Positions 2,079-5,584 of a DNA stretch of 7,659 nucleotides are shown in pieces. A program made the position numbers and the translations under genes. Under the pieces are notes generated by a model. That model saw nothing but the letters and a program-made list of their open reading frames with translations, was not told the DNA's origin and ran no database searches. The stretch is from a bacterium (lineage in GTDB: Bacteria; Electryoneota; RPQS01). The stretch is taken from contig JAQTRJ010000089.1 in NCBI GenBank assembly GCA_028711875.1, positions 1 through 7,659 of the forward strand, written 5' to 3'. Positions within the stretch are counted from its first letter, which is position 1; each line of letters starts with the position of its first letter.

Positions 2079-2956
2079 GAAACTCCCGGGGCCGAGTCGG
2101 AACGCCCGGCACGATTGAGACGGTAGAATTTCGCGATGACGCGATCCATCAGGCGGTCGGACAGGACGCGGCGCAGACAGGACGCAACGTGCGCGGGAAT
2201 CGTGACGCAGTAACGGGGATGAGGATTTTTCGCTTCGACGGCGCGGAGAATCACGCGGGCGGCGCGCTCGGCGCTGACTTCGAATTTTCGCCGCGCGGAA
2301 CGCTCGCCCCGCATCCGGGCCACCGTTTTTTCATACACAGGCACGAGCGGCAGAGGCAGGTCGGGAAGAAGCACGTTCTCGACGAAAGCGGTTTTCACCG
2401 GGCCGGGAAGAATGGAAATCGTGCGAATGCCGAAGCGCGCGAGTTCCAACCGCATCGTGTCGCTGAGAGCCTCGAGCGCGAATTTCGAGGCGGAATACCA
2501 GCCGTTGTAGGGCGCGGCGGTTTTGCCGAGAATGGAAGAGACGTTGACGATTCTCCCCCACCCCGCGCGGCGCATGTCGGGAACGACCATGCGCACGAGC
2601 CGCATCGCGCCGAAAACATTGGTTTCGAACTGCGCCTTCGCGTATTCATCGGAGACGGCTTCGAGCGGCCCGGCGACGCCGTAGCCCGCGTTGTTGACGA
2701 GAATATGAATTTCGCCGAAGGCTTCGCGGGCAGCCATCAGCGCCGCGACGCAAGAGGCTTCGTCGGTGACGTCGCAGGCGGCGGTGACAAGTTTCCAATT
2801 CTTCGCGCGCGCTTCCTCGATCAAATCCTGAAGCGATTCCGGTTTGCGCGCGGTGGCGACGACGGCGTAGCCACGCTCCGCAAGCCGTCGCGCAAGTTCC
2901 CTTCCAATTCCGCTCGAGCAGCCCGTGATGAAGACCGTTTTTTTTCGCGCGTCCAC
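2075..2956 (-). CDS. Short-chain dehydrogenase/reductase, 17beta-HSD-like
   Basis: A 293-residue NAD(P)-dependent classical SDR, probably cytoplasmic; the substrate is unknown. The Rossmann glycine motif TGCSSGIG is at 11-18, with R-containing ATARK after beta-2, which often favours NADP. The adenine-binding aspartate is D62 (DVT), NNAG is at 88-91, and the catalytic tetrad is N113, S141 (NVSS), Y154 and K158 (YSASK). PGPVKT at 184-189 follows. The TARKPESL and PGPV signatures resemble the 17beta-hydroxysteroid dehydrogenase-like SDR subgroup. The basic C-terminal tail (SCLRRVLSDRLMDRVIAKFYRLNR) is typical of it. The chosen start is GTG (2956-2954), sharing one base with the tnaA stop (TAGTG). 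GGAAGAG lies 5 nt upstream. A longer frame to 3073 would overlap tnaA by over 100 nt and adds no SDR-like sequence. Confidence 0.93.
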   Translation of the reverse strand: MDARKKTVFITGCSSGIGRELARRLAERGYAVVATARKPESLQDLIEEARAKNWKLVTAACDVTDEASCVAALMAAREAFGEIHILVNNAGYGVAGPLEAVSDEYAKAQFETNVFGAMRLVRMVVPDMRRAGWGRIVNVSSILGKTAAPYNGWYSASKFALEALSDTMRLELARFGIRTISILPGPVKTAFVENVLLPDLPLPLVPVYEKTVARMRGERSARRKFEVSAERAARVILRAVEAKNPHPRYCVTIPAHVASCLRRVLSDRLMDRVIAKFYRLNRAGRSDSAPGVS

Positions 2957-4326
2957 TATATCTCTTCCATGCGGGCGGTGAAGTGACGGAGCATGGGCGC
3001 TTCGTAGGTAAGGCGCAGACCGCGCATGGTTTTCCGGCTGCGGAAGATTTCCACAGTCGCTTCGGCCACGCAAATCATGTGCGATGACGTGTAGACGCGG
3101 CGCGGAATCGCGAGACGAACCAGATCGAGTTCCGGATATTTCGCTTCACCCGTTTTGGCGTCCTTTTCTGTGAACATGAGCGAACCAATTTCCACGGCGC
3201 GGATGCCCGCTTCGCGATAGAGAGCGACGGTGAGCGCGACGCCGGGGAACTGCGACTGCGGGATATGCGGGGCGAAGGCTTTGGCGTCAATAAACACCGC
3301 GTGACCGCCGATGGGCCGAACGACGGGAACGTTTTCCGCGATGAGCATGTCGCCGAGCGCGCGCACCTGACCGGTACGATAGTCGAGATAGTCCGGTTCC
3401 AGTCCTTCATAGAGACCGGCGGCAATCGCTTCCAGATCGCGACCGGCCAAGCCGCCGTAAGTGGGGAAGCCTTCGATGAGAATGAGTTTGTTCTTCAGCG
3501 TCTGCGCGAGCGTCTCATCGTTCATGGCGAGGAAGCCGCCGATGTTCACGAGCGCATCCTTCTTGGACGACATCCAGCAGCCGTCGCCATAGCTGAACAG
3601 CTCGCGGGCGATTTCGATGATCGGTTTGTTTTCGTAGCCCGCTTCGCGCTGGTGAATGAACCAGCAGTTTTCGGCGTAGCGCGCGCAGTCGAAGAAGAAG
3701 GGTACGCCGTATTTTTTACACACGCGCGAAGTTTCGCGGATATTTTCCATGGAGACCGGCTGACCGCCCGCCGAGTTGTTGGTGACGGTCATGGCGACGA
3801 GCGGAACGGAGGTCCGCTTCTTCGACAGCAGATCGTCGAGGGCGGGCACGTTCATATTGCCTTTGAACGGATGCTCGAGCGCGGGATGCAGCGCTTCCTC
3901 GACGGGCAGATCGAGCGCCAGCGCGCCGCTGGCGGAGACGTTGGCGTGGGTCGTGTCGAAGTGAGTGTTGTTGGGAATGATGACGCCCGGCTTGCCAAGC
4001 GTAGAGAACAGTAAATTCTCGGCGACTCGTCCCTGATGGGTGGGAATTACGTGGGCGAAACCGGTGATGTCGCGGACGGCAGCCTCGAAACGCTGAAAGC
4101 TGCGCGAGCCGGCATAGGCTTCGTCACCCTGCATGAGCGCGCCCCACTGACGGTCACTCATGGCCGCGGTGCCGCTGTCGGTGAGCAGGTCAATGAAGAT
4201 TGCGTCGGACGGAATGTTGAAGACGTTGAAGCCCGCCTGCTTCAGGAATTGCTCACGCTCTTCGCGGGAGGTGCGGCGGATTCTTTCGACTGTTTTGATG
4301 CGAAACGGTTCGGGGGGAAAGTTCAT
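2956..4326 (-). CDS. tnaA: Tryptophanase (tryptophan indole-lyase)
   Basis: PLP enzyme splitting L-tryptophan into indole, pyruvate and ammonia. The 456 residues are collinear with E. coli TnaA (471) and tyrosine phenol-lyase (456). IDLLTDSGT is at 45-53, GDEAYAGSRS at 67-76 (Y71), THQGR at 96-100, FDCARYAEN at 212-220 (D213, R216), and the PLP lysine K256 in SSKKDALV. FPTYGGLAGRD is at 287-297, GGHAVFIDA at 340-348, and R404 in VRLAIPR. Specificity positions match tryptophanase rather than tyrosine phenol-lyase: D124 (HFDTT; Thr in the phenol-lyase), I380 (AVEIG; Arg there) and H448 (LRHFTA; Phe there). The start MNFPPEPFRI aligns with both families, though no clear Shine-Dalgarno precedes it. 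The open frame runs on to a GTG at 4419 through REP DNA. No Trp-containing leader peptide or permease gene is adjacent. It heads the coupled SDR-HAD-fbp set. Confidence 0.95.
   Translation of the reverse strand: MNFPPEPFRIKTVERIRRTSREEREQFLKQAGFNVFNIPSDAIFIDLLTDSGTAAMSDRQWGALMQGDEAYAGSRSFQRFEAAVRDITGFAHVIPTHQGRVAENLLFSTLGKPGVIIPNNTHFDTTHANVSASGALALDLPVEEALHPALEHPFKGNMNVPALDDLLSKKRTSVPLVAMTVTNNSAGGQPVSMENIRETSRVCKKYGVPFFFDCARYAENCWFIHQREAGYENKPIIEIARELFSYGDGCWMSSKKDALVNIGGFLAMNDETLAQTLKNKLILIEGFPTYGGLAGRDLEAIAAGLYEGLEPDYLDYRTGQVRALGDMLIAENVPVVRPIGGHAVFIDAKAFAPHIPQSQFPGVALTVALYREAGIRAVEIGSLMFTEKDAKTGEAKYPELDLVRLAIPRRVYTSSHMICVAEATVEIFRSRKTMRGLRLTYEAPMLRHFTARMEEI
2957..2968 (-). promoter_or_regulatory. 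Shine-Dalgarno that sets the SDR GTG start
   Basis: GGAAGAG (2968-2962 on the minus strand) lies 5 nt before GTG. It overlaps the last codons of tnaA. It supports initiation at the stop-start overlap TAGTG and the 293-residue SDR over a longer overlapping version. Confidence 0.7.
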
Positions 4327-4382
4327 GGTGTTCAGGGTCAAGGAAGAAAGGTTTGTTGTTAGAACGAAATCGTCATTGAAGA

Positions 4383-4404
4383 GCGCACTGCCGTGCGGCA
4401 CTAC
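4383..4404 (-). repeat. REP element, copy R1
   Basis: On the minus strand GTAG (4404-4401) is followed by the hairpin TGCCG-CA-CGGCA (4400-4389) and GTGCGC. The GTAG tetranucleotide 5' of a short imperfect palindrome is the known layout of REP sequences recognised by RAYT transposases. It is identical over 22 nt to copy R4 and to the inverted copy R3. It lies between the transposase stop and the tnaA start. Confidence 0.88.
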
Positions 4405-4407
4405 CGA

Positions 4408-4422
4408 GCCGAGCGGCACTAC
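4408..4422 (-). repeat. REP element, copy R2 (short form)
   Basis: On the minus strand GTAG (4422-4419) is followed by TGCCG-CT-CGGC. It has the same orientation as R1 and is separated from it by 3 nt (cga), making a head-to-tail doublet. Its GTAG contains the stop codon of the transposase gene (TAG, 4421-4419). The loop differs from the other copies by one base. Confidence 0.82.
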
Positions 4423-4937
4423 CTACTTGGGTGATACTTATCTAATTCCCAGCGAAGCGGATTAGTTCGGATATAGTTGCAGGCACGGCTGAATTGGTCA
4501 GCATTACGGATGACATGTTCGAAGTAGTTTGGTTGCCAGAGGCGAGTGCCGGGTGCTTTCCGAAGCTCATTCACCAGCTTGGTTGTGTACGCCTTGAAAC
4601 CTGCCACAAAAGAGCTTATGGAATGCGATTCTCTTTCCCGGCTACTGCGACGATATACATCCGGTAGTGCCGCACGGCAGTGCGCTTCATTGTTCTCGCG
4701 AAGCAGCACAATCCCGTGAAGATGGTTCGGCATAACAATAAAATCCCCAACATTGAGTTCCTTGCGGATTTCGGCAGAGTGTCGCCATTCCCTCTCGACG
4801 ATCCGGCCATATTCGCTCAGATGGACACTTCCGTCGCCAACTTCTCCCAAGAAACACTCTTTATTGTGTATGCACAAGGTCAAGAAGTAGGTACCCGATG
4901 CGGCATAGTCATAATGAGGCAACCGGGTGGATTTCAT
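4419..4937 (-). CDS. REP-associated tyrosine transposase (RAYT, Y1/HUH)
   Basis: A 172-residue single-domain DNA nicking/joining enzyme of the IS200/IS605-like Y1 transposase family, here of the REP-associated type that processes GTAG-hairpin elements as single strands. The HUH metal motif is HLH at 72-74 in VMPNHLHGIV. The candidate nucleophile is Y138 in WQPNYFEHVIRN, followed by the conserved YIRTNPLRW at 155-163. HYDYAASGTYFLTLC at 8-22 is the usual family N-terminus. Three REP copies precede the gene, two follow, and one lies within it (residues 85-92, AHCRAALP) in the linker between the HUH and Tyr motifs without breaking the frame. The stop codon lies inside REP copy R2. The gene looks more AT-rich than its neighbours, suggesting acquisition. 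No clear Shine-Dalgarno precedes the ATG. Both catalytic motifs are intact, so it is probably active. Confidence 0.93.
   Translation of the reverse strand: MKSTRLPHYDYAASGTYFLTLCIHNKECFLGEVGDGSVHLSEYGRIVEREWRHSAEIRKELNVGDFIVMPNHLHGIVLLRENNEAHCRAALPDVYRRSSRERESHSISSFVAGFKAYTTKLVNELRKAPGTRLWQPNYFEHVIRNADQFSRACNYIRTNPLRWELDKYHPSR
4664..4685 (+). repeat. REP element, copy R3, inside the transposase gene
   Basis: GTAG (4664-4667), TGCCG-CA-CGGCA (4668-4679) and GTGCGC are identical to R1 and R4 but in the opposite orientation. It lies wholly within the transposase reading frame, where it encodes AHCRAALP (residues 85-92). Identity to R1 and R4 extends 2 more bases at the GTAG side, 24 nt in all. 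Confidence 0.9.
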
Positions 4938-4958: not shown

Positions 4959-4980
4959 GCGCACTGCCGTGCGGCACTAC
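4959..4980 (-). repeat. REP element, copy R4
   Basis: On the minus strand GTAG (4980-4977) and hairpin TGCCG-CA-CGGCA (4976-4965) are followed by GTGCGC. It is identical to R1 and sits 21 nt upstream of the transposase ATG. Its position fits a site for self-regulation or for cutting by the transposase (inference). Confidence 0.88.
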
Positions 4981-4995
4981 CGACTTACTAATCTC

Positions 4996-5017
4996 GCGCA
5001 CTGCCATGCAGCACTAC
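4996..5017 (-). repeat. REP element, copy R5 (diverged)
   Basis: On the minus strand GTAG (5017-5014) is followed by TGCTG-CA-TGGCA. Two changes relative to R1 turn two stem G-C pairs into G-T wobbles, so the hairpin can still form. The flanks GTGCGC and GTAG are unchanged. Confidence 0.82.
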
Positions 5018-5020
5018 CGA

Positions 5021-5035
5021 GCCGTGCGGCACTAC
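5021..5035 (-). repeat. REP element, copy R6 (short form)
   Basis: On the minus strand GTAG (5035-5032) is followed by TGCCG-CA-CGGC. It forms a head-to-tail doublet with R5 using the same 3-nt spacer (cga) as R1-R2. Its GTAG directly follows the stop codon of the HD-domain gene. Confidence 0.82.
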
Positions 5036-5584
5036 CTATTTGAGGAGGTCGCGGAGCGGTTCGAAGGTGATGAAGTCGGCATGGTGGACGATGACGGCGG
5101 CGGGCGAACGATACGCGCCGTCGCCCTCGTGCGCGTGCACGGCGATAATGTGCTGGACTTCGTCGGGCAGGCCGTGTTTGAGAGCCAGCGCCGCGCCGGA
5201 AAACGGATGACGCATGATGCGGCCGGTTTGACTCTTCACGAAACCCTTCTCGGTCTCGGCATACTCCATGAGCTTGCCGACGTCGTGGAGAATCGCGCCC
5301 GAGAGCAGAATATCGCGATCCAGTTGATAGTAGCGGTTGTAGAAACCGTCGAGAGTGTCGGCGATACGGATGGAAGTCTGCACGACGCTGCGCATGTGCG
5401 TGAGCAGTCCGACCGGGCAGTTCGGAATCAGGAGCGTGAAGGGGATGCGATCGAGATCATCGAGCGTCCACCCGCCACGGCTCATGGCTTCCTGAAAGGC
5501 GGCGCAGGTCTTGGCGCGGATATTGTTATCAGTGATGTGGGCGATTTCGGGGAAGACTTCGATTAATTTTTCGGTGAGCGGCAT
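5036..5584 (-). CDS. HD-domain metal-dependent hydrolase
   Basis: A 182-residue soluble protein with the conserved HD phosphohydrolase layout. H63 is in LTHMRSVV, the doublet H100-D101 in ILHDVGK with K104, H126 in RHPFSG, H150 in VHAHEG, and D170 in HHADFI. HD proteins of this kind bind divalent metals and cleave phosphate esters, often of nucleotides or RNA. The spacing loosely resembles the HD domain of YhaM-type exoribonucleases, but no nucleic-acid-binding domain is present, and the substrate is unknown. The start ATG (5584) has GGAG 6 nt upstream and lies 17 nt after the glycosyltransferase stop. An in-frame extension to 5629 would overlap that gene and is unlikely. The TAG stop abuts REP copy R6, so the REP/RAYT block begins exactly where this gene ends. 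Confidence 0.85.
   Translation of the reverse strand: MPLTEKLIEVFPEIAHITDNNIRAKTCAAFQEAMSRGGWTLDDLDRIPFTLLIPNCPVGLLTHMRSVVQTSIRIADTLDGFYNRYYQLDRDILLSGAILHDVGKLMEYAETEKGFVKSQTGRIMRHPFSGAALALKHGLPDEVQHIIAVHAHEGDGAYRSPAAVIVHHADFITFEPLRDLLK

Follow-up and report, generated by a model that had tools for sequence, protein, structure and literature searches.

Why does a gene for a REP-associated tyrosine transposase (RAYT) carry, inside its own reading frame, a copy of the repeat that flanks it, and has this copy been tolerated there as a chance insertion or kept as a feature of the gene? The question is raised by the window analysed here, a stretch of 7,659 nucleotides that forms a whole contig of a 2.30 Mb genome (367 contigs, completeness 92%). 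RAYTs are kept transposase relatives for which we know of no established benefit to the cell. The initial annotation formulated the choice between tolerated insertion and kept feature. An in-gene REP is not a singular case, and the kind as such is already in print: in the available sections of Quentin et al. (2018, PMC6006769), the subclass 2.4 is described as having REPs within the tnpA_REP genes, in frame and generally between HuH and Y, and in-gene REP insertions predominate in this subclass. No later paper on REPs inside RAYT genes was found by title or abstract in the open literature, and the available sections of PMC8266576 hold no passage on them. What is new here is the agreement of the internal repeat with the REPs around its own gene, the paired changes of its two arms and its persistence in genes without flank copies; in the accessible part of PMC6006769 we found no flank-matching test, covariation test or genes with an internal REP only, all three of which are presented here.

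The RAYT gene of the window (4419..4937, minus strand) is intact and encodes 172 amino acids. Its open reading frame matches the profiles NF047646 of NCBIfam (REP_Tyr_transpos; E 3e-18, 66.1 bits, curated cut-off 80) and Y1_Tnp of Pfam (E 2.4e-04, 21.7 bits, curated cut-off 23), in both cases below the cut-off, which is a score threshold and no biological feature; the assignment is carried by fold and motifs. An AlphaFold2 model based on a 40-row alignment (mean pLDDT 86.5) has as its best structural match PDB 4er8 (E 7.6e-08, TM 0.63/0.65), the E. coli RAYT (TnpA_REP) bound to a REP hairpin. The HUH motif, as initially annotated, is found at residues 72-74 (H72-L73-H74; codons 4716..4724, minus strand, by arithmetic). 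The catalytic tyrosine had been placed at Y138, which in the profile alignment stands opposite F98 of 4er8; Y155 falls on Y115 and N159 on N119 (residues counted from the alignment), so that Y155 (codon 4473..4475, minus strand, by arithmetic) is the catalytic residue. It heads the sequence Y155-I-R-T-N159-P160, a Y---NP motif of the form given as typical of class 2 proteins in the sections of PMC6006769 at hand. With HUH, Y---NP, the 4er8 fold and flanking GTAG REPs, the window gene has the features of a class 2 RAYT of the Y1 HUH type.

The likeness to E. coli TnpA_REP thus comprises the fold, the HUH and Y---N residues and the GTAG REPs on either side of the gene. Unlike the window RAYT, 4er8 lacks a long loop after HUH in the alignment. 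In the model this loop spans between strand 72-79 and helix 107-126, and the internal REP is positioned in it, between HUH and Tyr155. The pLDDT drops below 50 at residues 86-91 and 95-98, in agreement with the flexible linker initially suggested; judged by this low model confidence the loop is probably disordered, so most REP-encoded peptides would be tolerated. From H74 to Y155 there are 81 residues, and the median HuH-Y distance reported in the accessible text of PMC6006769 is 88 in subclass 2.4 compared to 58-67 in most subclasses. Like the subclass 2.4 tnpA_REP genes described there, the window gene carries a REP of its locus in frame between HuH and Y, in a beta3-alphaC insertion, and by loop position, HuH-Y distance and internal REP alone it fits this subclass, to which the same source assigns RAYT group 4 of Bertels et al. 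2017.

The internal REP, a GTAG foot with a hairpin, covers 22 nt at 4664..4685 (plus strand) and encodes, in frame, most of AHCRAALP, residues 85-92 (codons 4662-4685). As the initial annotation had noticed, it is an inverted exact copy of the flanking repeats. On the 3' side of the gene the 22-mer recurs exactly at 4383..4404 (minus strand), and the inverted repeat extends to 25 nt (4662..4686, partner 4382-4406); a partial REP of 16 nt with a 94% match follows at 4408..4423 (minus strand), and its GTAG foot contributes the TAG (4419-4421) with which the RAYT gene stops. The same arrangement of a RAYT stop inside the GTAG foot of an adjoining REP was seen in several relatives, at L077, L116, L126, L133, L148, L180 and L199. 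On the 5' side there is an exact 22-mer at 4959..4980 (minus strand; exact inverted repeat of 24 nt, 4959-4982), a second REP with two mismatches at 4996..5017 (minus strand; 92% over 4996-5019) and a partial one of 16 nt with a 100% match at 5021..5036 (minus strand). The GTAG foot of the flanking copies is on the coding strand of the RAYT and that of the internal copy on the opposite strand, so the mRNA is without GTAG plus hairpin in the internal copy. The E. coli REPtron, in the available text of PMC6006769, has inverted REP pairs beside the gene, whereas at the window locus all flanking copies point the same way and their inverted partner lies within the gene; the internal and flanking copies could possibly pair in a foldback, as their complementarity suggests. 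The neighbouring gene (2956-4419, minus strand) belongs by Pfam and NCBIfam profile matches to the tryptophanase/tyrosine phenol-lyase family. As listed it begins at a GTG inside the flanking REPs, its first residues being REP-encoded, and its true start is therefore probably further in.

Is this repeat a REP? Within its own genome the exact 22-mer occurs at three places, all at the RAYT locus, and with up to three mismatches at 48 sites, compared to 0 for a reversed-pattern control, so the number of REPs is above chance. The repeat has a GTAG foot, an imperfect palindrome with a short stem and repetition in the genome; as single-stranded DNA it folds weakly (5-bp stem, -5.5 kcal/mol, z -0.65). 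REPs are by definition extragenic, which the internal copy is not, since it lies in the RAYT frame; we retain the name, as its sequence is exactly that of extragenic copies.

The genome count also indicates how readily other proteins accept the repeat. All 48 sites were taken and 20 open reading frames covering them, mostly the longest, were tested for Pfam domains. Apart from the RAYT copy, two sites are clearly within Pfam-supported coding sequence and in frame, one between a beta-helix region and a secretion sorting domain (L008, 438-459) and one after a SpoIID domain (L213, 1501-1522). At L020 and L211 (two sites) the REP is in an N-terminal stretch before the domains and may precede the true start, the frame at L025 has a sub-threshold DUF match only, and the remaining frames of the 20 gave no Pfam match. 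Other proteins thus do accept a REP in a linker, though seldom. Similar cases, REPs (GTAG/CGTC) and the Rickettsia RPE in frame in other genes, were reported by Di Nocera et al. (2013, PMC3733652); in the parts of that paper available, as in the window, a palindromic repeat is read through in a protein, often in a linker. The hosts described there are unrelated genes, whereas the host here encodes a transposase predicted to recognise the repeat. These observations bear on the most serious rival explanation, in which the REP landed by chance in a permissive loop, survived because it was in frame and has no function. That REPs are tolerated in two other genes speaks in its favour, as does the view in the accessible text of PMC6006769 that the variable region of subclass 2.4 may have little impact on activity; the small number of REPs in other supported coding sequence of this genome argues against it.

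To compare the loop among relatives, RAYT genes were collected with up to about 1.5 kb per side, the loop was defined as the segment between the residues aligned to 76 and 107, and a flank match was scored as the best ungapped score of a loop against its own flanks, with a threshold of 16 or more in both sets. Set 1 comprised 129 loci, 124 of which had the gene (none at L102, L118, L127, L161 and L196), 122 being unique and 117 used after dropping L099, L100, L163, L165 and L188 as short or broken; it includes the gene of the window (L075). Set 2, from genomes absent from set 1 and containing part of the matches found, comprised 71 loci, 69 with the gene (none at L238 and L290) and 68 used (L262 dropped). 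Excluded beforehand were L229 and the other tandem RAYTs of two genomes (G385 and G317), because these have RAYTs in their flanks, and two distant relatives on viral contigs were kept out of the counts. One stretch outside the counts (G385, contig C2, 2300408-2302059) holds three tandem RAYT genes nearly end to end, and at L145 an apparent broken second RAYT with REP-like palindromes of its own is located just upstream of the intact gene.

The internal repeat proved to be tied to its locus. In set 1, 56 of the 117 loops matched their own flanks, compared to 79 of 4680 comparisons with the flanks of other loci and 0 of 233 for neighbouring gene segments of equal length against their own flanks; the corresponding counts in set 2 were 21/68, 81/4556 and 3/136. 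Within genomes that harbour several RAYTs, own-locus matches outnumbered those to other RAYT loci of the same genome in set 1 (42/83 vs 5/198, 29 genomes) as well as in set 2 (14/37 vs 0/70, 14 genomes), which indicates that the match is to the gene's locus and not only to its genome. The window's genome itself has a second RAYT (contig C160, L105) with a different REP, present twice in the loop and also in the flanks. In the loops of L190 and L280 the repeat unit, spacer included, measures at least 60 nt and differs little from the flank (scores 60 and 102), giving the impression that a complete REP dimer was copied into the loop.

As to orientation, 30 of the 56 matched genes had the internal copy inverted relative to their clear flank copies and 15 had it in direct orientation, while 3 were mixed and 8 ambiguous. 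A general orientation rule was dropped, as the ratio of 30:15 by genes (p 0.036) became 13:7 when counted by 25 clusters (p 0.26). Of the 12 genes with clear copies in both flanks, 10 are wholly inverted, one is mixed (L106) and one direct (L190), in a set weighted towards the phylum of the window.

The loops were next compared as DNA and as protein. The net stem score was taken as pairs minus twice the mismatches, without bulges, with a threshold of 8 or more. This score was reached by 73 of 117 loops in set 1 (neighbouring segments 4/117 and 2/116) and by 61 of 68 in set 2 (2/68 and 2/68). In a planctomycete-type group of relatives it was reached by 0 of 23, and among 13 other relatives with named organisms by 9. 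The window's own loop has a stem of 5, reached by 43 of 60 synonymous resamplings, and its nearest relative (L076) behaves likewise; for the window copy the evidence hence comes from the flank match and from its kin, not from the stem. Over set 1, the mean best stem of 8.31 fell to 5.18 after synonymous resampling, and in 56 of the 117 genes at most one of 60 resamplings reached the observed stem. Neither a flank match nor a stem of 8 was present in 26/117 and 7/68 genes of the two sets.

The possibility that the loop residues are selected as protein and that the palindrome is a by-product draws on the 11 closest homologues (68-77% identity), all of which keep AHCRAAL or AHGRAAL, a conservation that on its own would fit a protein element. 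The initial annotation had regarded the same peptide in homologues with unrelated REPs as the sign of such an element. Alignment gave another picture: in the more distant relatives, whose REPs are different, this loop encodes other peptides from DNA that is palindromic, and since the arms of these palindromes remain complementary the peptide follows the palindrome. In 30 distinct DNA rows (28 genes) selected with the peptide motif G-xxxx-APT, 78 cells had changed on both sides compared to 27.1 in shuffles, and 90% of the cells were paired compared to 32-50% when the partner was slid. Two of the five paired-change measures did not exceed the shuffles (two-sided-change pairs, 6 vs 5.6; further pair types, 14 vs 16.9), and the innermost pair is unpaired in 11 of the 30 rows. 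The finder of row coordinates may return a flank copy with identical letters, which leaves the paired-change counts unaffected. Re-dealing the right arms among the rows lowered pairing from 0.856 to a mean of 0.373 for G-xxxx-APT and from 0.938 to 0.518 for VGA-xxx-xPL (8 distinct rows), none of 2000 trials being as high in either case. Moreover, many central dipeptides (AR, MH, LQ, IY, AC) are those of self-complementary hexamers.

Codon use leads in the same direction. In 40 non-redundant gene pairs from both sets that share a loop peptide of at least six residues, 267 of 318 codons were the same in the shared peptide compared to 1505 of 3252 in the core, the proportion being higher in the loop in 39 of the 40 pairs. 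In ten pairs that have REP-foot residues but lack flank copies in both genes, the counts were 83/93 compared to 457/891. Nine pairs without REP-foot residues, the intended control, were high too (50/66 vs 332/717), but several of their peptides look REP-encoded as well, so this control is not clean. Synonymous resampling, re-dealt arms, codon conservation and paired changes on both arms together lead us to reject peptide conservation as the cause, and we consider it very improbable.

How old and how stable are these repeats? Another genome of the same genus holds the syntenic locus (2057 bp at 70% identity), with an internal REP identical over 24 nt, the longest identical run elsewhere in the gene being 18 nt. 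That the whole arrangement is an assembly artefact, as might be feared for a short contig of a repeat-rich, 367-contig metagenome assembly, is made next to negligible by its presence in this second genome. In the syntenic gene (L076) the internal copy matches its own flank over 39 nt, which suggests exchange between copies. A tolerated insertion refreshed by gene conversion or template switching with flank copies a few hundred bases away would account for such matches, the 39 nt of L076 and the 60 nt of L190 pointing to recent exchange, and for the variation of loop length and REP number among relatives.

It accounts less well for persistence where flank copies are lacking. Genes without a flank match still had a stem score of 8 or more in 35 of 61 cases (set 1) and 40 of 47 (set 2), and genes with core identities of 47-64% share exact palindromes. 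For two palindromes we searched whole genomes, allowing at most three mismatches. The first was confined to the RAYT gene in G185 and present elsewhere too in the other five genomes searched; the second was confined to the RAYT gene in G039 (59% complete), accompanied by one 3-mismatch site in G214, present in more copies in G159, G161 and G208, and found in none of four further genomes. Genomes in which close copies were found only in the RAYT gene argue against a tolerated insertion, to which we give an appreciable though lesser chance.

The lack of donors bears equally on a third explanation, homing, in which the RAYT itself adds or exchanges REPs at the one already present in its loop and renewal is due to the enzyme instead of host selection. 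Homing would fit related genes that hold different REPs at the same site (L120 and L125, whose loops differ at 74% core identity) and loops with more than one copy or with whole dimers (L105, L199, L190, L280). It needs donor copies, which are absent at the locus in many genes and which did not turn up in the sequence of G185 and G039 that was searched, and no insertion was observed; we regard it as unlikely. Insertion with flank exchange, or homing, does explain the recent-looking cases (L190, L280 and the 39-nt match of L076).

Across the relatives, then, the internal repeat matches its own locus, its arms change in pairs, its constraint goes beyond the peptide and it persists without flank copies. 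On these grounds we give a probability of about 0.47 to the reading that the internal REP is an in-frame copy of the gene's own REP, likely kept as a DNA element with the peptide as by-product. Recurrent insertion with flank exchange and homing together weigh about the same. Counted against a kept element are the weak hairpin and stem-test score of 5 in the window, the genes with neither feature, the long recent-looking flank copies of L190, L280 and L076, such as insertion or exchange would give, and the in-frame REPs of two other Pfam-supported genes in the same genome. The choice posed by the initial annotation therefore leans towards a kept feature, short of proof, with recurrent tolerated insertion as its serious rival.

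If the element is kept, we infer that selection is responsible and that expression or the locus may be affected. The selected trait would be the hairpin, bound by the encoded enzyme as single-stranded DNA of its own gene, or as transcript. With such a self-recognition site, enzyme output or action at the locus would depend on the enzyme's own specificity and might be affected by competition from REP copies elsewhere, a dependence that would account for the match of the internal copy to the flanking family and for their changing together. A cis function of the internal REP is thus a prediction of the kept-element reading. Extended to the whole of group 4, the proposal is more tentative: RAYT genes of this group may be self-addressed, with the cognate REP hairpin as a permanent and selected component of the reading frame that is rewritten along with enzyme specificity. 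Where close copies occur nowhere else in the genome, such a gene would carry its own substrate or operator, and could seed a new REP family at any destination it reaches.

A coding sequence that contains the predicted target of its own product, with the arms held complementary across the amino acids, would offer a way to find out directly what RAYTs act on, how REP specificity changes and whether enzyme and repeat are tied by feedback. Moreover, constraint would here run opposite to its usual direction, with a DNA signal shaping a loop of the protein.
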